DNA of 64,000 nt from Verrucomicrobiota bacterium. Its GTDB lineage: Bacteria > Verrucomicrobiota > Verrucomicrobiia > Opitutales > Opitutaceae. The first letter of the stretch is position 1; every line of letters starts with the position of its first letter. Both the position numbers and the translations under genes were made by a program. Positions 5,268 through 30,824 of this stretch are shown in pieces. The stretch lies in the NCBI GenBank assembly GCA_016871755.1, contig VHCJ01000001.1:124001-188000 (forward strand). Reading direction: 5' to 3'. Under the pieces are notes generated by a model that was not told the origin of the DNA, did no database searches, and saw only the letters and a list, made by a program, of their open reading frames with translations.

Positions 5268-6496
5268 CCGGCACCCGCCGGCTGCTCGTCCGCCGCGGAT
5301 TCGTACTCGGCCAGCACCAGCGGATCCGTCTCGGCCGCGCGGGCCGACGCCAGCGCGTCACCGCCGCCAAGCTGGAAGATCGCCCACACCGCATGCGCGC
5401 GGACCACCGGCAGCGCGTGCTGTGCGAGGGCGTGCAGCGCCGGCAAGTGGGCGCAATCCCCGGAATTGCCCGCAACGATGCAGGCATTGCGGAGCAGGCC
5501 GGAAAGCTTCAGCCGCTTCACCGCCGTCCCCCGGAACACCGCCGCGAATCGCTCCGGCGTCAGCGCGAGCAACTCCGCAGGCGTGAGCTCGCGCAGATCG
5601 TGACTCACGCTGAGCAGCATCCGCCGCCCCTCCTGCGCGAAGCGGTTCCACGGGCACACCTCCAGGCAGGTGTCACAGCCGTACACGCGATCGCCAATCC
5701 CGCGGCGCAGCGCCCGCGGGATGATGCCCTTGTTCTCGATCGTGTGGTACGAGATGCAGCGGCGGGAATCGACGACCCCCGGAGCCGGAAACGCCTGGGT
5801 CGGGCACGCCTCGAGGCAGCGCGTGCACTTGCCGCAAAGGAGTCCGGCGTGGGCGCCCGACTGCGCGGGATTAGCGGGAGGCGGCCGACGCCGGATCGGC
5901 GGGTCCGCGGGAAGTGCGAGGCGCGTCAGGATCGAGGCGAGGAAAAGCCAGTTGCCGTGCGTGCGCGAAATTAGCATCGCGTTCTTCCCGGTGAAGCCGA
6001 GCCCGCTCCGCGCCGCCCAGCCCCGCTCGAGCACCGGACCCGTGTCGACGTAGTAACGATAGTCGCCGCCTCCGAGGTTCGCGAGACGCTCCAGCAAGCG
6101 CCCCGCCTCCACCAGACCGGCGCGGATCGTGTCGTGGTAGTCGGCGTGCAACGCGTACCGCGCCCAGCGCGGGCGGGCGGGAGACGGCAACGCGGCTGCG
6201 CCCACGCCCACGCTCGCCGACGCCGGCGCGTCGGGCATCCAGTAGTTCACGCCGAGCAGGATGATCGAACGGGCGCCCGGCAGGACCTGCGTCGGATCGG
6301 CGCGCTTCTCGCGGGTGCGCTCCATCCAGGCCATGTCGGCGTGGTGCCCGGCGTCGAGCCAGGCTCCGAGACTCGCGCCGACCTCGGGATCCGGCAGGGC
6401 GGCGAACCGCACCTCATCGAACCCGAGTTCGCGCAGCCCCGCGCGCACCTGTTCGTGGAGCGGCGCGGGCATGGGCTCAGGCGCGGCGCGGGGCAT
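5264..6496 (-). CDS. queG: Epoxyqueuosine reductase QueG
   Basis: A 410-residue cobalamin-dependent enzyme for the last step of queuosine tRNA modification, reducing epoxyqueuosine to queuosine. Two ferredoxin-like 4Fe-4S motifs are visible (CGKCTRCLEACP and CDTCLEVCPWNRF), preceded by the conserved VDTGPVLERGWAARSGLGF block, and the C-terminus is HEAT-like. The start at 6496 overlaps aroK by 20 bp. ATG 6472, 24 bp further in, leaves a 4-nt gap after the aroK stop and is an equally plausible start. It forms an operon with aroK. Confidence 0.95.
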   Translation of the reverse strand: MPRAAPEPMPAPLHEQVRAGLRELGFDEVRFAALPDPEVGASLGAWLDAGHHADMAWMERTREKRADPTQVLPGARSIILLGVNYWMPDAPASASVGVGAAALPSPARPRWARYALHADYHDTIRAGLVEAGRLLERLANLGGGDYRYYVDTGPVLERGWAARSGLGFTGKNAMLISRTHGNWLFLASILTRLALPADPPIRRRPPPANPAQSGAHAGLLCGKCTRCLEACPTQAFPAPGVVDSRRCISYHTIENKGIIPRALRRGIGDRVYGCDTCLEVCPWNRFAQEGRRMLLSVSHDLRELTPAELLALTPERFAAVFRGTAVKRLKLSGLLRNACIVAGNSGDCAHLPALHALAQHALPVVRAHAVWAIFQLGGGDALASARAAETDPLVLAEYESAADEQPAGAG

Positions 6497-7046
6497 CCGC
6501 GGGTCGATGCTGGCGGAGCCACTCGGCCGCGTCGCGCTGGTAGGAACGCATCACGTGGTTGACGATGTCGCCCAGCGGGCGGGCGTCGGTCAGGATCATC
6601 GTGCCGGCGCTCCGGTAAAGCGGCTCGCGGGCGGCGTAGAGCGTGCGCAGCCGCGTTTCGAGGTCCTCGACGTTGAGAAGCGGGCGGTGCTTCTGGCCCT
6701 GCGTGCGGCGCAGGATCGTCTCCAGCGAAGCGTGCAGGCAGATGACCACGCCCTTGCGGCGCAGCAGGCCGAGCATGCCCTCGGGCACGATCAGCCCGCC
6801 GCCGCAGGCGATGATGTGGCCGGACTCCGGGTGGCCGGACTCAATGAACGTGCGTTCCATCCGCCGGAACGCGGCCTCCCCCTGCTCGGCGAAGATGGTC
6901 GTGACCGGCTGCCCGGCGGTGCGCTCGATCTCGTGGTCGCTGTCGATGACCCCCATGCGCAGCCGCTGGCCCAGCGCCCGGCTGATGGTCGTCTTGCCGG
7001 TGCCCATGAAGCCGACGAGGTAGAGATTGGGAACGAAGGCGGACAT
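6477..7046 (-). CDS. aroK: Shikimate kinase
   Basis: A 189-residue shikimate kinase, which phosphorylates shikimate in chorismate and aromatic amino-acid synthesis. It shows Walker A GFMGTGKTT (residues 12-20), the DSDHEIER shikimate-binding/Mg block, CGGGLIVPEG near residue 81, and the lid region around HRPLL. ATG 7046 is the start because the conserved N-terminus (PNLYLVGFMG) follows directly. It leads the aroK-queG operon and is divergent from the TRAP transporter, with 201 bp between the starts. Confidence 0.95.
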   Translation of the reverse strand: MSAFVPNLYLVGFMGTGKTTISRALGQRLRMGVIDSDHEIERTAGQPVTTIFAEQGEAAFRRMERTFIESGHPESGHIIACGGGLIVPEGMLGLLRRKGVVICLHASLETILRRTQGQKHRPLLNVEDLETRLRTLYAAREPLYRSAGTMILTDARPLGDIVNHVMRSYQRDAAEWLRQHRPADAPRRA

Positions 7047-7247
7047 CGAGAGCAGCCCCCATCGATGGCGCGCGCGACCGCCCCTGCCAACGCCGAAAAA
7101 TCCGCCTGCCGGGCTGGCCCCTCCAGGCCACGGACGCCGGTGACGATGCGCCCGCGACCGGCAAGAGCGTGGCGCGGACCACCCGCCGCAAAGAAAGGCT
7201 CGTCTGGCCGCGCCCGGCGGGTGAATCTCCGCGCCACCCCTGCCGTG

Positions 7248-8243
7248 ATGCCGCGCCGTTACTCCCTCGCCGGCCTCGCCAGCCTCGTGCTTGGGCTGGT
7301 TCTGCTCGCGGGCTGCGGCCGGGCCGGGGGCGCGAGGGTCATCAAGCTCGCCCACGCGCTCGACCCGTCGCATCCGGTGCACCTTGGCATGGAGCGTTTC
7401 GCGACGCGGCTCGCCGAGAAATCGGGCGGACGGATCCGCGTCGACCTTTACCCCAGCGGCCAGCTTGGCACCGAGCGTGAATGCATCGAACTGCTGCAAC
7501 TGGGCGGGCTGGGCATGGCCAAGGCCTCGTCGTCCGCGCTGGAGGGCTTCGCCGAGGCGTACCGGGTCTTCGGCCTGCCCTTCCTCTTCCGCAACGAGGC
7601 GCACCGCTGGGCGGCGCTCGAGGGCGACGTCGGACGCGGGATCCTGCGGGCGGCGGAGGACAAGTTCCTCCGCGGGCTCTGCTACTACGATGCCGGGACG
7701 CGCAACTTCTACACGACGGCCCGGCGGGTGGAGCGGCCGGAGGACCTCGCTGGGCTGAAGATCCGCACCCAGGAAAGTCCGATGGCGATCCGGATGGTCC
7801 GGGCCCTCGGCGCCTCGGCCACGCCCATCGCGTTCGGCGAACTCTACACCGCGCTGCAGCAGGGCGTCGTGGACGGCGCCGAGAACAACCCTCCCAGCTT
7901 CCACCTCTCCCGCCACTACGAACTCAGCCGCTACTACGTGCTGAGCGAGCACTCCGCCGTGCCCGACGTGCTGCTCATCAGCACCCACCTCTGGCGCCAG
8001 CTCTCGGCGGAGGAGCAGCGCTGGGTGCAGGAGGCCGCCGACGAATCACAGGCGCTCCAGCGGCGGCTCTGGCACGAGGCCTCCGCCCGCTCACTCGACG
8101 CCGTGCGCGCCGCCGGGGTGGAGGTCATTGTGCCGGACCAAGCCGCCTTTCAGGCCCGGGTGGCGCCGCTGCACGATGAGATCGCGCGGGAAATGCCGGC
8201 TGTCGGGGCTCTGGCGCGCCGGATCCGGGAGGTGACGCCATGA
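7248..8243 (+). CDS. dctP: TRAP transporter solute-binding protein DctP
   Basis: A 331-residue periplasmic receptor of the DctP family, which binds an organic-acid-like ligand for Na+-driven TRAP uptake. It carries a lipoprotein signal (LVLLAGC), so it is probably membrane-anchored rather than freely soluble. Family blocks include FPSGQ-like LYPSGQLGTERE, AGLKIRTQESP, and GELYTALQQGVVDGAENN. The ligand-salt-bridge Arg is expected in the KIRTQE segment. It is the first gene of dctPQM; its stop overlaps the next ATG. Confidence 0.94.
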   Translation: MPRRYSLAGLASLVLGLVLLAGCGRAGGARVIKLAHALDPSHPVHLGMERFATRLAEKSGGRIRVDLYPSGQLGTERECIELLQLGGLGMAKASSSALEGFAEAYRVFGLPFLFRNEAHRWAALEGDVGRGILRAAEDKFLRGLCYYDAGTRNFYTTARRVERPEDLAGLKIRTQESPMAIRMVRALGASATPIAFGELYTALQQGVVDGAENNPPSFHLSRHYELSRYYVLSEHSAVPDVLLISTHLWRQLSAEEQRWVQEAADESQALQRRLWHEASARSLDAVRAAGVEVIVPDQAAFQARVAPLHDEIAREMPAVGALARRIREVTP

Positions 8244-8746
8244 CCGCCCTGCGCCACGCCCTCGAACGCCTGCTCGCTGCGGCGATCGCCATCCTGATGA
8301 CCGCGATGGTGCTCAATGTGCTCTGGCAGGTCTTCTCCCGGTTCGTGCTCCGGACACCCAGCTCCCACACCGAGGAACTCGCCCGCTACCTCATGATCTG
8401 GCTCGGTTTGCTCGGCGGCGCCTACGGCGTCGGCACCAAGTCGCACCTCGCCGTCGACTTCCTCACCGCCGGCCTCCAGGGCGCGGCGCGCCGGTGGATG
8501 CACGCGGTGGTGGAGATCGCGGTCCTCGTCTTTGCCGCCGCCGTGATGGTGGGCGGCGGCGTGCGCCTCATGTGGGTGACCTTCACGCTCGGGCAGACCT
8601 CCGCGGCGCTGGGGCTGAAGCTCGGCTACGTGTACGCCGCCGTGCCCCTTGCGGGCGTCTGCATCGTCGTCTTCTGCCTCGCCTCGCTCGCGGCCCTGCG
8701 ACGGGGGAGCGCCGAGGACGCGCATCCGTCGGGAGGGCTGAACTGA
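8240..8746 (+). CDS. dctQ: TRAP transporter small permease DctQ
   Basis: A 168-residue four-helix membrane subunit of the TRAP transporter. It shows the usual W(Q/R)VFSRFVLRTPSSHTEEL block and EELARYLMIWLGLLGG. Start ATG 8240 overlaps the dctP stop (ATGA), and the stop is one base before dctM. It pairs with the large permease in the inner membrane. Confidence 0.93.
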   Translation: MTALRHALERLLAAAIAILMTAMVLNVLWQVFSRFVLRTPSSHTEELARYLMIWLGLLGGAYGVGTKSHLAVDFLTAGLQGAARRWMHAVVEIAVLVFAAAVMVGGGVRLMWVTFTLGQTSAALGLKLGYVYAAVPLAGVCIVVFCLASLAALRRGSAEDAHPSGGLN

Positions 8747-8747
8747 C

Positions 8748-10043
8748 ATGAGCGAAGCCGTCGTCCTGCTCCTCGTCTTCGTGCTCCTGCTCGCCGCCGG
8801 CGTGCCGATCGCGTTCACCCTCGGCCTCTCCGCCCTTGCCGCCCTCGCGGTCAGCCTTGATCCGGGCGCCGCCTCGACCGTGCTGGCGCAGCGGTTGGCG
8901 ACGGGGCTCGACAGTTTCGCGCTGCTCGCGATCCCGTTCTTCATCCTCTCGGGCAACCTGATGAACCGCGGCGGCATCGCGGCCCGCCTCGTGGACCTGG
9001 CCAAGGTGGTGGTCGGCCGCCTGCCGGGCGGGCTCGCCTACGTGAACGTGCTCGCGAACATGCTCTTCGGCGCCGTCTCCGGTTCGGCGGCGGCCTCCGC
9101 CGCAGCCAACGGCGGCTTCATGGCCCCGCTGATGAAGCGCGAAGGGTATGACCGGGACTTTGGCGCGGCGGTGAACATCTCCTCCGCCGTCACCGGCCTG
9201 CTCATCCCGCCCAGCAACGTGATGGTCGTGTACTCGCTCGCAAGCGGCGGCGTCTCGATCGCCGCGCTCTTCGTCGCGGGCTACGTGCCGGGCCTGCTCC
9301 TCGGGCTGGTGCTGATGGGGGTCGGCGGCGGGATCGCGCGGCGGCGGGGCTACCCCGTGGGCGAGCGCATCGGCGCGGCGCAGGCGTGGCGCATCCTGCG
9401 CGCCGCCCTCCCCTGCCTCGCCCTCGTCTTCGTCATCATGGGCGGCATCATCCTCGGCTGGTTCACGCCCACCGAGGCCAGCGCGATCGCCGTGCTCTAC
9501 ACGTTCGTCCTCGCCGTCCTCGTGTACCGCGAGGTCAAGTGGAGCGACCTGCCCCGGATCGTGACCGACTCAGCCGCAACCACCGCGGTCGTCCTGCTCC
9601 TCATCGGCGCATCCATGGGCCTCTCTTGGGTGATGTCCTCGGCCAACCTGCCGCAGGGGGTGACCTCCCTGCTCCTCGGCCTGACGGAGGACAAGCTCCT
9701 GCTGCTCCTGCTCATCAACGTGCTGCTCCTGCTCGTGGGCACCTTCATGGACATGACACCGGCGGTGCTCATCTTCACACCGATTCTCCTGCCGGTCGTG
9801 CAGAAGTTCGGGATGGATCCGATCCACTTCGGGCTGATGATGATCTTCAACCTCTGCATCGGCCTCTGCACCCCACCGGTCGGCAGCGTGCTCTTCGTCG
9901 GCTGCAGCGTCGCCCGCACGACCCTGCGCCACGTCCTCCGGCCGCTCCTCCCGTTCTTCGCCGCGATGGTGATCGTGCTCCTGCTCGTCACCTACGTCCC
10001 GGCCATCTCCCTCTGGCTCCCGTCCCTCCTCGGGCTGAAGTGA
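8748..10043 (+). CDS. dctM: TRAP transporter large permease DctM
   Basis: A 431-residue polytopic membrane protein and the ion-coupled channel subunit of the TRAP transporter. It has about a dozen hydrophobic segments and the family signatures AIPFFILSGNLMNRGG, GAVSGSAAASAAANGG and FTPTEASA. Together with dctP and dctQ it forms a complete single-substrate uptake system. No regulator or catabolic gene adjoins, so the substrate cannot be inferred. Confidence 0.95.
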   Translation: MSEAVVLLLVFVLLLAAGVPIAFTLGLSALAALAVSLDPGAASTVLAQRLATGLDSFALLAIPFFILSGNLMNRGGIAARLVDLAKVVVGRLPGGLAYVNVLANMLFGAVSGSAAASAAANGGFMAPLMKREGYDRDFGAAVNISSAVTGLLIPPSNVMVVYSLASGGVSIAALFVAGYVPGLLLGLVLMGVGGGIARRRGYPVGERIGAAQAWRILRAALPCLALVFVIMGGIILGWFTPTEASAIAVLYTFVLAVLVYREVKWSDLPRIVTDSAATTAVVLLLIGASMGLSWVMSSANLPQGVTSLLLGLTEDKLLLLLLINVLLLLVGTFMDMTPAVLIFTPILLPVVQKFGMDPIHFGLMMIFNLCIGLCTPPVGSVLFVGCSVARTTLRHVLRPLLPFFAAMVIVLLLVTYVPAISLWLPSLLGLK

Positions 10044-10263: not shown

Positions 10264-10831
10264 ATGTACGGACTTGTGAACCGCGCAGTGCAGGAATTGG
10301 TCACCCGAAACCACGGAGAGGAGGTCTGGCAGCGCATTCGACAACGGGCCAAGGTCGATACGCTGTCATTCCTGAGACTCACGCAGTATCCCGACGAAGT
10401 GACGTATGCGCTGGTGGGTGCCGCTTCGGAGGAACTGGGAGCACCGGCGAGCGATCTCCTGCGGGAGTTCGGCCGTTCCTGGATCGGCTTTGCGATGCGG
10501 GAGGGTTATCGGGAGTTGTTCCGCATCTCCGGGAAGGACCTGCGCAGCTTCCTCGCCAACTTGGACAACCTCCACGCGCGACTCGGCATGACGTTCGTCG
10601 GCATGGACGCACCGAGCTTCGTGGTGACCGACCGTGGGCCGGACGAAATGCTGGTTCATTACTACAGTTCCCGGCCGGGTCTCACGCCGTTCGTACAGGG
10701 CCTGCTGGAGGGCCTCGGTCCGGTGTTTGCGTGCGAGGTGCAGGCGACCGTTGAGTCGACCCGCGCCGACGGTCAGGACCACGACACCTTCCTCGTACGC
10801 TGCACTCCGGTTAAGGAAGCGACCGACTCCC
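10264..10831 (+). CDS. H-NOX haem nitric-oxide sensor (expected stop missing)
   Basis: A haem NO-binding (H-NOX) domain covering about 182 residues. The proximal haem ligand is H104 (LDNLHARLG) and the haem-propionate motif YxSxR is Y133-S135-R137. The distal position that holds Tyr in O2-binding H-NOX proteins aligns with Pro (about P142), which predicts selective NO binding. Homology ends at about residue 182 (FLVRCTP). No stop follows in this frame; it stays open to 11808, but the tail is Arg/Pro/Gly-rich and overlaps the kinase. A TAA at 10812-10814 sits one frame away at exactly the expected end, so one base may be missing. The range given ends at the kinase start. Confidence 0.8.
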
Positions 10832-13360
10832 ATGCCGGGCCTGCAACCCGAGGCACGCCTGCCGGCACCGGACGTGCACGCGCTGCTGCAGGCGGCGTTT
10901 CCCTTTCACCTGGTCTTCGATCAGCACCTGCGGCTGATGGACGTGGGGCGAAGCGTCCCGACAATCTGCCCGGCGGCCGTGGAGGGAGCGGGGCTGCTCG
11001 ACATCACGCGCCTGCTGCGCCCCAAAGGGGTCGTCGACGCCGCCGGCGTCATGGACCGGCACGATCAACTCTTCGTCCTGCAGGTGCCCCAGAACGGCGT
11101 CCAGCTCCGCGGACAGGTGATCGCACTCGCCTCGGGCGGCGCAGCCCCGGCCAGGTTCGTCTTCATCGGCTCACCTTGGGTCACCAAGCTGGAGACGATC
11201 GCGAACCTCGGCCTGACCCTGACCGATTTCGCGGTCCACGACCCGATCGCGGAGTTCGCGCTGTTGCTGCAGACGCGCGACATGGCGCTCGACGATGCGC
11301 GGAGGCTGACAAAGCAGTTGGAGGAGGAGCGCGCAGAGCTCCACGAACTCGCCACGCTGCAACGTCTTCAGATCGAGGTCTCGCAGGCCCTCGCGGGCGC
11401 CGAGGGCGAGGACGCCGCGGTTTCGGCGCTGCTCCGCGAGGTGTGCCGCGTGTTTCGCTACGACCATGCCGAACTCTGGTTGGTCGATGGCGAGGGAGCG
11501 ACGGTCCGGACCCACCACCACCGGGTGGGCGACGACCCGGCGATCGCGTCCCACCCCGCAGGATCATCCGCATCATGGCCCGAAGCGGACGGGTCGAGCA
11601 TCGCGCGCGTCGTGGCGAGCGGCCTGCCGTACGCGACGTCCGCCGGCGGGCACCCTACGACGGTGGTTTCGGCCGGTTCGGGCTTGGCCTCCGAGCTGAC
11701 GGTGCCCGTTCGCAGTTCCAACCGCACGCTCGGAGCCCTGCGGCTCCTCTCGTCCGGCAATGGCGGGCAGTCGCGGCGCCTCATCGACGGGATCACCCAG
11801 ATCGGTGAACGCCTCGGCTGGTATCTGGAGCGCTGCCGGAGTCTCGAGTCGGTGCGGCGCGCCAAAGAGGCCGAACGCGCCAACGAGGCCAAGAGCGCAT
11901 TCCTCGCGACGATGAGTCACGAGATCCGCACGCCCCTGAACGCGGTGATCGGGGTCTGCGGACTCCTGCTCGAGACCGGACTCGCGTCCGAGCAGCGCAG
12001 GCTCGTCGAGATCATGCACAACAGCGGTGATGCGCTGCTGGAAATCATCAACGACACCCTCGATCTCGCGAAGATCGAGGCGGGGCGCGTGGAGTTGCAC
12101 CGGCGCGCCGTCGATCCACGCGCGCTCGTCGAGGAGGCCTTGGAAGTCGTGGCATTCCGGGCCGCCGAGAAGGGTCTCCGCATCGCCGGCATCGTCAGCG
12201 ACGACGTGCCCGGACTCGTCGTTCTCGATCCGCTGCGGGTCCGTCAGATCCTGGTCAACCTGCTCGGCAACGGCGTCAAGTTTACGGAGCGGGGCGAGGT
12301 CGTGCTTGAGGTCCGGGTTCCGGGAGAGGGGCGCCTCGAATTCCGGGTGCGCGACACCGGGATCGGCATTCCCCGCAACTGGCGCGACCGGCTGTTCCAG
12401 CCGTTCTCGCAGGTCGACACGTCCAACACCCGCCGCTTCGGAGGCACGGGGCTCGGTCTTGCGATCACCGGCCAACTGGTGCGGCTGTGCGGTGGATCAA
12501 TCGGCGTCGAGTCGGAGGAGAACGAGGGCTCGACCTTCACGTTCGACATCGAGGCGCCGCCTGCCGACGCCGCGCGAAGCGAAGCCGCTGATCCCCTGCG
12601 AGGCTGCACCGCGCTGGTGGTGGATCGCCACCCCGGCTCCGCCGAGGCGCTCGTGCTCTGCCTCCAGCGCCTCGGGATCAAGGGTCAGCGCGCTGAAGAC
12701 CTCGCCGCAGCACGCTCCCGCGTGGCCGCCGGGCCGGTCGACTTCGTATTAGTCGAGGGGAGCCTCCTCATTGCTGACGAAGCCGGCTGGCGGGATGTGC
12801 GGCGGGCCGGCGGTGGTGCCCTCGTGGCGCTGCAGGCTCTCGGCGCGCCACCGGTTCCCGTCGGCGCGGCGGCAACGCTGACCCTGCCCGTGCGCGAGGG
12901 AGCGCTGGGCACGGTCCTGCGTGAGCTGCGCCTGACCGAGCCGCAACCGGCCCCAACGGTCGCGCCCGCGCAAGCCCTCCCTCCCTTGCCGCCGCTGCGC
13001 GTGCTGCTCGTCGGCGACAATGCCATCAATCGCACCGTCGCCCTCCAGATGCTGCGGAGACTGGGTCTCGATCCGGCAACCGCCGCCGACGGTCAGCAAG
13101 CGATCAACGCCACCCTGCGCGACACCTATGACATCGTGCTGATGGACGTCCAGATGCCTGGCATCGACGGCCTTGAAACGACCCGGCGGATCCGCTGCTC
13201 CGGCCTCAGTCGCCAGCCACGGATCGTTGCGATGACCGCCAACGCCATCGAGGGCGATCGAGAGGCGTGCCTCGACGCCGGCATGGACGACTACCTCGCC
13301 AAGCCGGTGCGACTCGACGCCCTCGCCGCCGCGCTGCGTCGGCAGGTCGCCGCACTCTGA
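10832..13360 (+). CDS. HNOBA-GAF hybrid sensor histidine kinase
   Basis: An 842-residue soluble hybrid kinase. Domains in order: an H-NOX-associated HNOBA domain (residues about 10-150, with [20 protein letters not shown] and FIGSPWVT), a coiled coil, a GAF-like domain (about 190-325), HisKA with SHEIRTPLN (H363), HATPase ([15 protein letters not shown]), a degenerate receiver without its Asp, and a C-terminal receiver with phospho-acceptor D772 (LMDVQMPG). In the last receiver the usual acidic pair E-D reads G-D. No transmembrane segment is seen. ATG 10832 is preceded by AAGGAAG at 10813-10819. HNOBA pairs with H-NOX in soluble guanylate cyclase, so the upstream H-NOX is the likely input. 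No separate response regulator adjoins. Confidence 0.9.
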
Positions 13361-23336: not shown

Positions 23337-23946
23337 TCACGGGCTATCCGGAACCGTCGGCGGATCCCGGTCTGGGCGGCGCACTTCGTCCGGCCGCCAC
23401 GACGTGACGAGCGACGACAGGACGCGACCAAAGCTCTCGTTGTCAGAGACATTGACGGAGGCAACGAAATGAGCGCACAGGTCGGCAAGTGACGCCGGAC
23501 GACCAGAGCGCACGGAAACGTGTGCGTCTCCTTGTGCGTGTGCACAGTCGCTGGTTGGTAAAGTCTCAGTCGTGAGCGCATCGGCCGGCAAAGGCCCGTG
23601 CGACGCCGCCACGCCCGCCCCGGAAGGACGTGAGCCCCTCCGAGACCGCCGAGGTCACCGGCTCAGCCTCGATCCAAGGCAGTTTCGCGATCTCCGTGTG
23701 CAGCACCAAGGCAGCTTCAAAAGCGATCGGGCGCTTTTAAAATTCAGGCCCCTTTTCTTTAACTCCTCGGACGATTGGGGCCAGCAGAGTGCTCACACCC
23801 CTAACTTGGCCGACACCGCGAGTTTGAGTAATCGGCAAAACATCGGCAAAATCTCCGCTTCTTACGGCGCAAAATATTCTTTAACCTTTTGTCCCATAGG
23901 TATAAACCTGCCGAAAAGATCGGTAAAAAGATCGGCGATAACGCTC
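23337..23946 (+). other. Fic upstream region with repeated ATCGG(C/T)AAAA boxes
   Basis: No gene is supported with confidence. From about 23720 the region is distinctly AT-richer than the surrounding DNA. It holds two pairs of similar boxes: ATCGGCAAAA at 23831-23840 and 23842-23851, then ATCGGTAAAA at 23919-23928 and ATCGGCGATA at 23931-23940. Spacing within pairs is 11 and 12 bp, about one helix turn, as in operators bound by a dimer or oligomer. They lie just upstream of the inferred Fic start and could be an autoregulatory operator. The Fic frame is open through this region back to a GTG at 23572. Confidence 0.55.
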
Positions 23947-25140
23947 ACGAAAACGGCCATCGAGCCCGTCATCCCCACCCAGAGGCTCCGTCCCCTGGAA
24001 GACTTGGCATGCACGATTGTCGAACGAGCCGCCCGTCTCTCGGCCAAGTTGCGAGAACCGTTGCGAGCCCAGATTGCCGAGCTGACCCGATGGATGCACT
24101 GCTACTACTCGAATTTGATCGAGGGCCAGCAGACACGTATTCAGGACATTGAGGCGGCGCTCAAAAAAGACTTCGCGGCCGAGCCGAAGAAACGCGGTCT
24201 GCAGCAGCTTTCGCTGGCACATCTGGAGGTCCAGCGGTGGGCCGCAGGCCAGACCGGATCGCCCTTCGCCGCCGATTTCATCCGCGAACTACACCGGCGA
24301 TTCTACGCGCAACTTCCCGAATCCATGCGCGTCGGCACCACGTCGAAGGGAGAAAAAACGCCGCTGACTCCCGGCCAACTGCGGGACCGCGACGTGGAGG
24401 TCGGCACTCACGTCGGACCACCGTACGAACTCGTCCCTGAGTTGCTCAGTCATTTTCAGTGGTGCTACGAGTCGGCGGATTTTTCCCTCATTCAGCGCAT
24501 CATCGCCATCGGCGCGAGCCATCACCGCCTCGCCTGGATTCACCCCTTCCGCGACGGCAACGGACGCGTGGTGCGGCTGTTCTCGGACGCGTTGATCCGG
24601 CAACTCGGCATCGACGGGGGTGGCCTCTGGTCGCTGTCGCGCGGTTTCGCACGCGAGCGGTCGGAATACTATCAGCGACTGTCCAACGCCGACCAGGAAC
24701 GCAGCAGCACCAGCGCGGACGATGGTCGCGGTCATCTCAGCGAACGCACGCTCTGGGATTTCTGCGAATTCACGCTGCGCGTGATGGCCGACCAGATCGC
24801 CTTCATGGAGCAGTTGCTCGACCTCGACGGCCTCGAGCGGCGCATCGAGCACTACGTCCGCGTCGTGGATGCCCAGGTCGCACCCGGAGCCGACCGCGTT
24901 TTTCTCCTCCTGCGTGAGGCCCTGCTGCGCGGCGAATTTCCGCGCGGTGAAGCGGCCCGCATCGTGAACGCCAGCGAGCGCACGGGCCGCTCGGCGCTGA
25001 CTCTTGCGATCGAGGCGGGATTGCTGGTATCGGACACACCTAAAGCCCCCGTGCGGCTCGGCCTGCCGGCAAAAGTGCACGAGACCTATTTCCCGCAGCT
25101 ATTTCCCGGTAACCAATTCACGGGGAGTGCAACCGGATGA
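23947..25140 (+). CDS. Fic-family AMP-transferase with inhibitory motif
   Basis: A Fic protein that attaches AMP (or a related group) to target proteins. The complete catalytic motif HPFRDGNGRVVR is at residues 199-210. The autoinhibitory helix motif [S/T]xxxE[G/N] appears as SNLIEG at 55-60, so it is a self-inhibited class II type. A winged-helix-like C-terminus follows (ERTGRSALTLAIEAGLLV). The start is uncertain: family homology begins around KTAIEPVIP, where the codon in the expected ATG position is ACG (23947). The frame is open to GTG 23572, which would add about 125 residues of no family character. The last codons abut a PIN-like gene fragment. Confidence 0.85.
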   Translation, partial: TKTAIEPVIPTQRLRPLEDLACTIVERAARLSAKLREPLRAQIAELTRWMHCYYSNLIEGQQTRIQDIEAALKKDFAAEPKKRGLQQLSLAHLEVQRWAAGQTGSPFAADFIRELHRRFYAQLPESMRVGTTSKGEKTPLTPGQLRDRDVEVGTHVGPPYELVPELLSHFQWCYESADFSLIQRIIAIGASHHRLAWIHPFRDGNGRVVRLFSDALIRQLGIDGGGLWSLSRGFARERSEYYQRLSNADQERSSTSADDGRGHLSERTLWDFCEFTLRVMADQIAFMEQLLDLDGLERRIEHYVRVVDAQVAPGADRVFLLLREALLRGEFPRGEAARIVNASERTGRSALTLAIEAGLLVSDTPKAPVRLGLPAKVHETYFPQLFPGNQFTGSATG

Positions 25141-29522: not shown

Positions 29523-30824
29523 ATGGCCCCCCTTCCGCGCTCGATCCTCGTCGTCGGCTCCGGCGGTCGCGAACACGCGCTCGTGCACGCCCTCCGGCGC
29601 TCCCCCGCCCAGCCCCGCGTCCTCGCCGCCCCGGGCAACGCCGGCATCGCCGAGGATGCGCCGTGCCTGCCCGTGGCCGCCGACAACATCCGGGGGCTCG
29701 TCGAACTGGTCCAGCGCGAGGCAATCGACTTCGTCGTGGTCGGTCCCGAGGTGCCGCTCTCCCTCGGCCTCGTCGACGCCCTCGCCGCCGCCGAAATCCC
29801 CGCCTACGGGCCCACCGCCGACGGCGCCCGGCTGGAAGCGTCCAAGATCTACACGAAGGAAATCCTCCAGAAGTACCGGATCCCGACCGCCGACGCCGCC
29901 TTCTTCGACGACGCCGACGCCGCCATCGCCTACATCCGCGCCCGGCCCGCCCCCATCGTGGTCAAGGCCGACGGTCTCGCCGCCGGCAAGGGCGTCGTGG
30001 TCGCGTCCTCCCACGACGAGGCCGCCGCCGCCGTGCAGGCGCTGCTCGCGCTCCACGCGAAGCCGGACCCGGCCGCCGCGCCGGCCCGCATTCTCATCGA
30101 GGACTGCCTTGTCGGAGAAGAAACGTCCCTCCTCGTCGTCGTCTCGGGCCGCGACTACGTGATCCTGCCGACGTCGCAGGACCACAAGCGGGCGGGCGAC
30201 CACGACACGGGGCCCAACACCGGCGGGATGGGGACCTACTCGCCGGCCGAGGTGGTGACGCCGGAACTGCTCGCGCGGATCGACCGGGAGATCGTGCGTC
30301 CGTCCGTCGACGCCATCGCCGCCGAGGGCATCGTCTTCCGCGGCACGCTCTTCATCGGCATCATGCTCACCGCCGACGGCCCGAAGGTGCTCGAGTACAA
30401 CACGCGCTTCGGCGACCCGGAGACGCAGGTGGTGCTCCCGCGGCTGCGGACCGACGTGCTCAGCCTGCTCTGGGCCGCCGCCCTCGGCGAGCTCGCCGGG
30501 GTTTCCCTCGACGTCAGCCCCGAGCACGCGCTCTGCGTCGTGATCGCCGCCCGGGGCTACCCGGATCGCTACGCGAAGGGCGACGTGATCCAGATCCCGG
30601 TACCCCTGCCGCCGGAGGTGACGGTCTACCATGCCGGCACCGCGCGTTCCTCGACCGGCGAGCTCGTGACCAACGGCGGCCGCGTCCTCGGCGTCACCGC
30701 CCTCGGCCCCACGCTGCAGGCCGCCGCCGACTCGGCCTACGCCGCCTGCGAGCGCATCGCCTGCGCAAGCAAGTACTACCGCCGCGACATCGGCGCCCGC
30801 CAACTGCGCCGGCATTCGGCTTAA
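29523..30824 (+). CDS. purD: Phosphoribosylamine-glycine ligase PurD
   Basis: A 433-residue ATP-grasp ligase for the second step of purine synthesis, joining glycine to phosphoribosylamine. Visible blocks are [15 protein letters not shown] at the N-terminus, [30 protein letters not shown], and [12 protein letters not shown]. Length is normal for the family. No other pur gene adjoins; it lies 47 bp after the LOG-domain gene in the same direction, and both relate to nucleotides. Confidence 0.97.

Follow-up and report, generated by a model that had tools for sequence, protein, structure and literature searches.

Do the two adjacent genes studied here carry the sensory half of animal soluble guanylate cyclase (sGC), divided between two proteins and joined to a histidine kinase? 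The window, that is, the whole stretch of 64,000 nucleotides that was analysed (G000:C1:124001-188000), belongs to a draft genome of 3.67 Mb with a completeness of 97.41%. The initial annotation had proposed that an sGC-like sensory module (H-NOX, HNOBA and helix) is spread over two adjacent genes with a hybrid histidine kinase as output, and the profile, sequence and fold matches described below bear this out. The locus is very probably a two-gene NO-sensing two-component module in which the H-NOX protein acts on the kinase. By Pfam, TRAP-transporter genes (DctP, DctQ, DctM) lie upstream of the pair and a DUF418 gene lies downstream. Homologues of DctM and DUF418 occupy the corresponding places in L006, the closest named locus, which comes from a same-genus relative, a pond metagenome bin of the Opitutaceae. 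The TRAP-transporter genes ahead of the H-NOX gene span 6261-10043 in the window and L006:1403-4237, the latter assigned by ORF resemblance. The window also encodes a Fic/DOC domain protein at 23572-25137. The features of the pair are collected in Table 1.

Table 1. Features of the H-NOX/kinase pair, in window coordinates.
Feature	Position	Strand	Basis
H-NOX (HNOB) gene body	10264..10848	+	ATG 10264 to the codon preceding the lost stop; Pfam
H-NOX domain, residues 2-161	10267-10746	+	PF07700
Proximal haem ligand His104	10573..10575	+	pairs with Alr2278 His105; invariant in 17/17
Phe143, distal position	10690..10692	+	pairs with Nostoc Met144 in the Alr2278 alignment
AAGGAAG, ribosome-binding-site-like, 12 nt before ATG 10832	10813..10819	+	inferred from sequence
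Hybrid histidine kinase HNOBA-helix-GAF-HisKA-HATPase-REC1-REC2, 842 aa	10832..13360	+	Pfam, relatives
CGA codon where L006 has the H-NOX stop TAA	10849..10851	+	gap-free alignment with L006
HNOBA (H-NOXA/PAS)	10883..11347	+	PF07701, two stretches; PDB sequence matches
Long signalling helix, residues 138-189	11243..11398	+	AlphaFold2 model
GAF, about residues 192-319	11405..11788	+	weak Pfam match; GAF structure matches
HisKA, residues 353-418; phospho-acceptor His363 in MSHEIRTP	11888..12085	+	Pfam, motif position
HATPase_c, residues 466-575; N, G1, F and G2 boxes	12227..12556	+	Pfam, motifs
Degenerate receiver REC1 (end estimated); Glu642 at the acceptor Asp site	12596..12946	+	Receiver_CRE1
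REC2, residues 724-835; Asp772 acceptor, Thr802, Lys824	13001..13336	+	Pfam, alignment

The first gene encodes an H-NOX domain with the haem-binding features that had been read from the sequence at the outset, namely His104 and a YxSxR motif (Tyr133/Ser135/Arg137). PF07700 was found to match the ORF at 10264 with an E-value of 3.7e-47 and 160.7 bits (cut-off 25.5), covering profile positions 1-161 of 163. His104, Tyr133 and Arg137 are unchanged in all 17 aligned H-NOX sequences (the window and 16 paired relatives), and Trp73 pairs with Trp74 of Nostoc Alr2278. This Nostoc protein is the best PDB sequence match (E 5.9e-50), followed by sGC beta1 (1.1e-34), and the Shewanella oneidensis and Tt H-NOX proteins are far more distant (E about 2e-5). 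In an AlphaFold2 model built from a 12-row alignment, with a mean pLDDT of 82.7, the same ranking was observed by Foldseek, which placed Nostoc H-NOX first (2o09_A, TM 0.86/0.92) and sGC beta next.

The ligand preference of the domain turns on the distal pocket. From the arginine of the motif onward, the window reads R-P-G-L-T-P-F and Nostoc Alr2278 reads R-A-G-L-A-P-M, so that Nostoc Pro143 pairs with Pro142 of the window. We take Nostoc Met144 to be the structural counterpart of Tt Tyr140 and sGC Ile145. Judged from this alignment, Phe143, next to Pro142, is the likeliest equivalent of the distal Tyr. The initial annotation had stated that the distal tyrosine is replaced by proline; the lack of a tyrosine was confirmed, and the residue named was found to be one position off. 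The column of Phe143 holds Phe in 14 and Met in three of the 17 aligned sequences, and Tyr in none. The predicted selectivity for NO thus survives as a prediction: since there is no distal Tyr whether Phe143 or Pro142 is taken, NO selectivity of the window H-NOX is a fair prediction and no more. According to passages of PMC12329717, only predicted O2 sensors among the H-NOX proteins possess the distal Tyr.

The second gene encodes a protein whose domains follow the order first proposed for it (HNOBA, coiled coil, GAF, HisKA, HATPase and two receiver-like domains), as supported by Pfam and by an AlphaFold2 model. Its start is most likely ATG 10832, whereas the ORF list opens the frame at GTG 10634; the ATG lies about 85 nt downstream of position 10746, at which the HNOB match ends. 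The kinase of L006 starts at ATG 5016, preceded by AAGGAAGGT. Searching both frames with profiles, a check that the initial annotation had named, matched PF07700 in the one and PF07701 in the other, with HNOBA at kinase residues 18-172. The PF07701 match (E 8.6e-19, 68.3 bits vs a cut-off of 23.4) covers the N-terminal PAS part and consists of two stretches, residues 18-87 and 88-172, aligned to profile positions 7-77 and 112-195. By sequence, the HNOBA domain is closest to 2p04/2p08 (2p04, E 4e-13), and the matches to sGC range from 3e-10 to 1e-7 (alpha1 3.3e-10, beta1 3.3e-8).

Structure prediction, carried out on each protein alone, also leads to sGC, which takes Foldseek ranks 1-6 for kinase residues 1-349 and forms the second group for H-NOX. 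The kinase model, built from a 12-row alignment, has a mean pLDDT of 79.4 and a pTM of only 0.50, so that domain orientation is not readable from it; 2p08 was ranked 31. In VIA-align comparisons, this model was superposed on sGC beta 8hbe_B with Z 17.0 and rmsd 2.5 over 137 aligned residues, on 8hbh_B with Z 17.4 but rmsd 7.1 over 189, and on 2p08_B with Z 15.5 and rmsd 2.4 over 107, at 30-31% identity. The continuous helix predicted by the model stands for the coiled coil named at the outset. The GAF domain scored just under the Pfam cut-off (22.0 vs 22.4) and is supported by the model, in which 3cit_A, a sensor-kinase GAF, was matched with Z 16.4 and rmsd 2.7 over 152 aligned residues (VIA-align). 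A chance match is excluded by the E-values and fold matches obtained for the pair. The Pfam scan, at E up to 0.01, returned no cyclase family for it.

The output half has the features of a hybrid histidine kinase, namely His363 in HisKA, the N, G1, F and G2 boxes and a receiver with Asp772. The two receivers differ in quality. For REC1, the best stretch of Receiver_CRE1 (residues 589-632) scored 27.3 bits vs a cut-off of 27, Glu occupies the acceptor position (window codon 12755-12757) in all three of the closest sequences, and dN between the window and L006 (0.36) is the highest among five kinase sub-regions. Glu642 and this high dN are as expected for a pseudo-receiver, which REC1 would appear to be on sequence grounds. 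In REC2, the acidic pair reads Gly728-Asp729 in the window (Gly728 at 13013-13015), Asp-Asp in L006 and Glu-Asp in L007, so that the canonical receiver pair, usual but not strictly defining, is lacking there; Gly728 may weaken metal binding by REC2. By Pfam, the window kinase carries no HPt domain, whereas one is present in six of 17 HNOBA proteins from other loci (L008, L009, L013, L016, L063 and L066), and L067 has an HPt match under the cut-off. The Hpt family has three matches genome-wide, in short frames of 137-176 aa away from the locus, on G000 C6, C25 and C44. With a kinase lacking HPt and three such frames in the genome, the relay probably continues in trans. Pfam scans of the pair and 15 other window ORFs identified no response regulator.

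Is the adjacency of the two genes a peculiarity of this genome? A survey of relatives, also suggested at the outset, was found to place H-NOX beside HNOBA again and again. Genome contigs scanned with the HNOBA region alone yielded 11 loci, which carry the labels Verrucomicrobia (or groups within it), planctomycetes, Gemmatimonadetes and Proteobacteria; all 11 have H-NOX directly upstream. Among 337 genomes sampled from the phylum of the window, 19 contain H-NOX and seven contain HNOBA including its N-terminal part, six of these seven with H-NOX directly upstream. The exception is G013, a single-contig genome of the same family, in which an orphan HNOBA hybrid kinase (L063:2052-5123) was observed and no H-NOX match was found. 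In a second sample, 398 genomes from the phylum to which L009 (a locus labelled Proteobacteria) belongs, 16 have HNOBA with the N-terminal part, and 14 of these adjoin H-NOX; in the remaining two, G744 has no H-NOX within 1.5 kb and G456 is cut by the contig start. Left out of these counts are PF07701 hits that begin at profile position 160 or later and miss the N-terminal PAS part; they account for 12 of the 19 matching genomes in the first sample and eight of 24 in the second. A GGDEF motif was found by pattern match in 11 of the 16 HNOBA frames from the phylum of L009. Therefore, with H-NOX beside HNOBA across the surveys and GGDEF in so many frames, HNOBA behaves as an adaptor coupling H-NOX to different outputs, kinase or GGDEF.

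HNOBA, HisKA, HATPase and REC were found together in 16 of the 17 HNOBA proteins of relatives that were scanned. The HisKA of L010 lies just below the cut-off (26.4 vs 26.9), and the 17th protein, the kinase of L015, is broken over two frames, of which the first part was scanned. GAF is common to the window kinase and its closest relatives, L006 and L007. H-NOX itself is present in three of 57 relatives and, within the genus, in only two of 10 genomes. The family of the window contains H-NOX-kinase pairs of two kinds: the MYG type of the window, and an MKG type in G016, where H-NOX adjoins a hybrid kinase with HPt and no HNOBA match (L069:5661-8766). MYG-type H-NOX genes without an adjoining HNOBA match were seen in L048, L049 and L061 (G256, G239 and G361), none of which passed a rough pattern check for the proximal His.

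Between the window and L006, dN and dS are 0.087 and 1.21 for H-NOX, 0.19 and 0.77 for the whole kinase, and 0.10 and 0.61 for the HisKA-HATPase region. Both genes are under purifying selection relative to L006, as an average over the whole divergence that recent decay could escape. Taken as a whole, the kinase is conserved no more strongly than its neighbour DUF418 (dN 0.17) and far less than DctM (dN 0.035).

The junction between the two genes differs from that in L006. In L006, the H-NOX frame ends at TAA 5006-5008, 7 nt ahead of the kinase ATG. Among the 16 paired relatives, a 4-nt ATGA stop/start overlap with an ATG start was found in nine and a candidate kinase start no more than 60 nt from the H-NOX stop in 15, the place in L011 lying outside the reach of the script. 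In the window, where the aligned codon is CGA, the H-NOX frame does not stop near the end of its domain; it is open to TGA 11806-11808, giving 514 aa, and shares about 975 nt with the kinase gene. A sequencing indel was rejected as the cause, for the alignment with L006 shows no gap between the H-NOX start and the far side of the junction. The lost stop may reflect an error in the assembled consensus. Alternatively, the open frame may lengthen the H-NOX product, and such a long out-of-frame tail may harm it.

Could the tail be functional? In its favour, the frame was kept open as long in just 1.65% of 2000 synonymous shuffles of the kinase ORF; over the first 324 codons, the window kinase has no stops in that frame vs a shuffle mean of 3.9 (a fraction of 0.012 of 500 shuffles being as low), and L006 has one vs a mean of 4.9 (0.036). 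Against it, L007 shows no deficit, with eight stops vs 8.8 in shuffles (0.45), and two of five other window ORFs are likewise stop-free (DUF418, 0.172; the ORF at 29523, 0.086). The frame is furthermore interrupted by a second stop in L006 and by a further seven in L007, and its codon-position composition equals that of the kinase frame. No NCBIfam model matched the tail at E up to 0.001. The evidence is mixed and the test post hoc, and the open frame was judged a by-product. There is only the slightest chance that a +1 ribosomal frameshift near the junction yields a single H-NOX-HNOBA-helix-GAF-kinase chain alongside the separate proteins; if true, the product would be a bacterial counterpart of the sGC beta subunit, fused in cis.

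How might the pair work? Beyond the domains, residues, adjacency and conservation observed, a mechanism is proposed in which the ligand, the docking and the relay partners are all putative. The stand-alone H-NOX protein would bind NO on a haem ligated by His104, and NO binding would break the Fe-His bond, turning the distal subdomain against the proximal one. Acting in trans, the H-NOX protein would then dock on the kinase at its HNOBA/PAS dimer and signalling helix, much as the beta1 H-NOX docks in cis in sGC, and would change the autophosphorylation of His363. The phosphate would pass from His363 to Asp772 of REC2, then to a stand-alone HPt protein, a step introduced because no HPt is attached to the kinase, and on to an unlinked response regulator, with REC1 (Glu642) as a non-phosphorylated pseudo-receiver. 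NO-sensing H-NOX proteins act on histidine kinases according to parts of PMC12329717 and PMC8846402, and the same parts describe inhibition of HnoK autophosphorylation by NO-bound H-NOX in the cases studied. By analogy with HnoK, NO-bound H-NOX would be expected to inhibit the window kinase.

Other readings of the locus differ in what the haem would sense. The H-NOX protein could be a haem-redox or oxidative-stress sensor with the same kinase output, for redox roles of some bacterial H-NOX proteins are reported in excerpts of PMC12329717 and PMC7108781, and an aa3-type oxidase in the genome, found by a PF00115 search, makes haem oxidation plausible. Doubt has been raised that the Nostoc protein is purely an NO sensor, to judge from the title 'Is Nostoc H-NOX a NO sensor or redox switch?'. 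A redox role is nevertheless unlikely here, as the haem pocket residues and the fold follow Nostoc and sGC. A second oxidase match in the genome is ccoN-like. Sensing of O2, as by the H-NOX proteins of strict anaerobes, agrees with the shared fold family, yet it is extremely improbable: neither the window nor any of the 16 paired relatives has a distal Tyr, Pfam detects no fusion to a chemotaxis receptor, and the aa3-type oxidase also argues against it.

A further reading is that the locus is decaying in this genome and the pair has ceased to serve as this module. It would account for the change of the H-NOX stop to CGA and of a REC2 acidic residue to Gly728, and the dN of the whole kinase, close to that of DUF418 and far above that of DctM, fits it too. 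However, H-NOX and the catalytic core both show a low dN relative to dS, and the kinase boxes are intact, so that decay appears quite unlikely. The two-gene NO-sensing module thus remains the preferred reading; weighing against it are the lost H-NOX stop, Gly728 of REC2, the lack of a response regulator among the window ORFs scanned, the doubt about the Nostoc protein and the presence of H-NOX in so few genomes of the genus.

How does this module compare with known systems? Bacterial HNOBA genes were reportedly found to adjoin HNOB genes by Iyer, Anantharaman and Aravind in 2003; relative to these neighbourhoods, the window has the same adjacency and differs by its lineage and the lost H-NOX stop, and in nothing essential. 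The Nostoc kinase gene of 2p04/2p08 reportedly also adjoins the Nostoc H-NOX gene. From Nostoc punctiforme, the HNOBA/PAS domain of a histidine kinase has been crystallised (2p04/2p08; Ma et al. 2008), and it is the best PDB match by sequence; that kinase is cyanobacterial, and the window kinase adds a GAF domain and two receivers, Nostoc being compared on its PAS domain. In parts of PMC8196705, PMC2828450 and PMC2904703, bacterial homologues with H-NOXA/HNOBA domains are described, and the Nostoc kinase PAS structure serves as a model of sGC; the last of these cites the 2003 paper. The H-NOX/HnoK systems of Shewanella and Caulobacter have a stand-alone H-NOX acting on a histidine kinase, as proposed for the window, and the Caulobacter H-NOX gene lies beside the kinase gene according to sections of PMC12329717 and PMC8846402. 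Neighbouring H-NOX and HNOBA-GGDEF genes have a cyclic-di-GMP output, whereas that of the window is phosphotransfer; Dgc1 of Dinoroseobacter is described as under NO control in part of PMC8846402.

The H-NOX, HNOBA/PAS and following helix of animal sGC (6jt0, 6pas, 8hbh) are homologous to those of the window pair. In sGC, however, they are fused in cis in a heterodimer with a cyclase output, whereas the window has them in the same order over two frames, with phosphotransfer as output and no class III cyclase domain. Overall, the coupling of an sGC front end to a histidine kinase is a known arrangement, and the window pair is a further example of it that opens no new kind of system. This example has a GAF domain, shared with the closest relatives, and a lost H-NOX stop. 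H-NOX in Verrucomicrobiota seems to be little described in the papers searched, and the pair adds an Opitutaceae-like example together with a small survey in which HNOBA behaves as a dedicated partner of H-NOX in several bacterial phyla. Such trans H-NOX/HNOBA pairs are useful models of how the NO signal passes through the sensor module of sGC.
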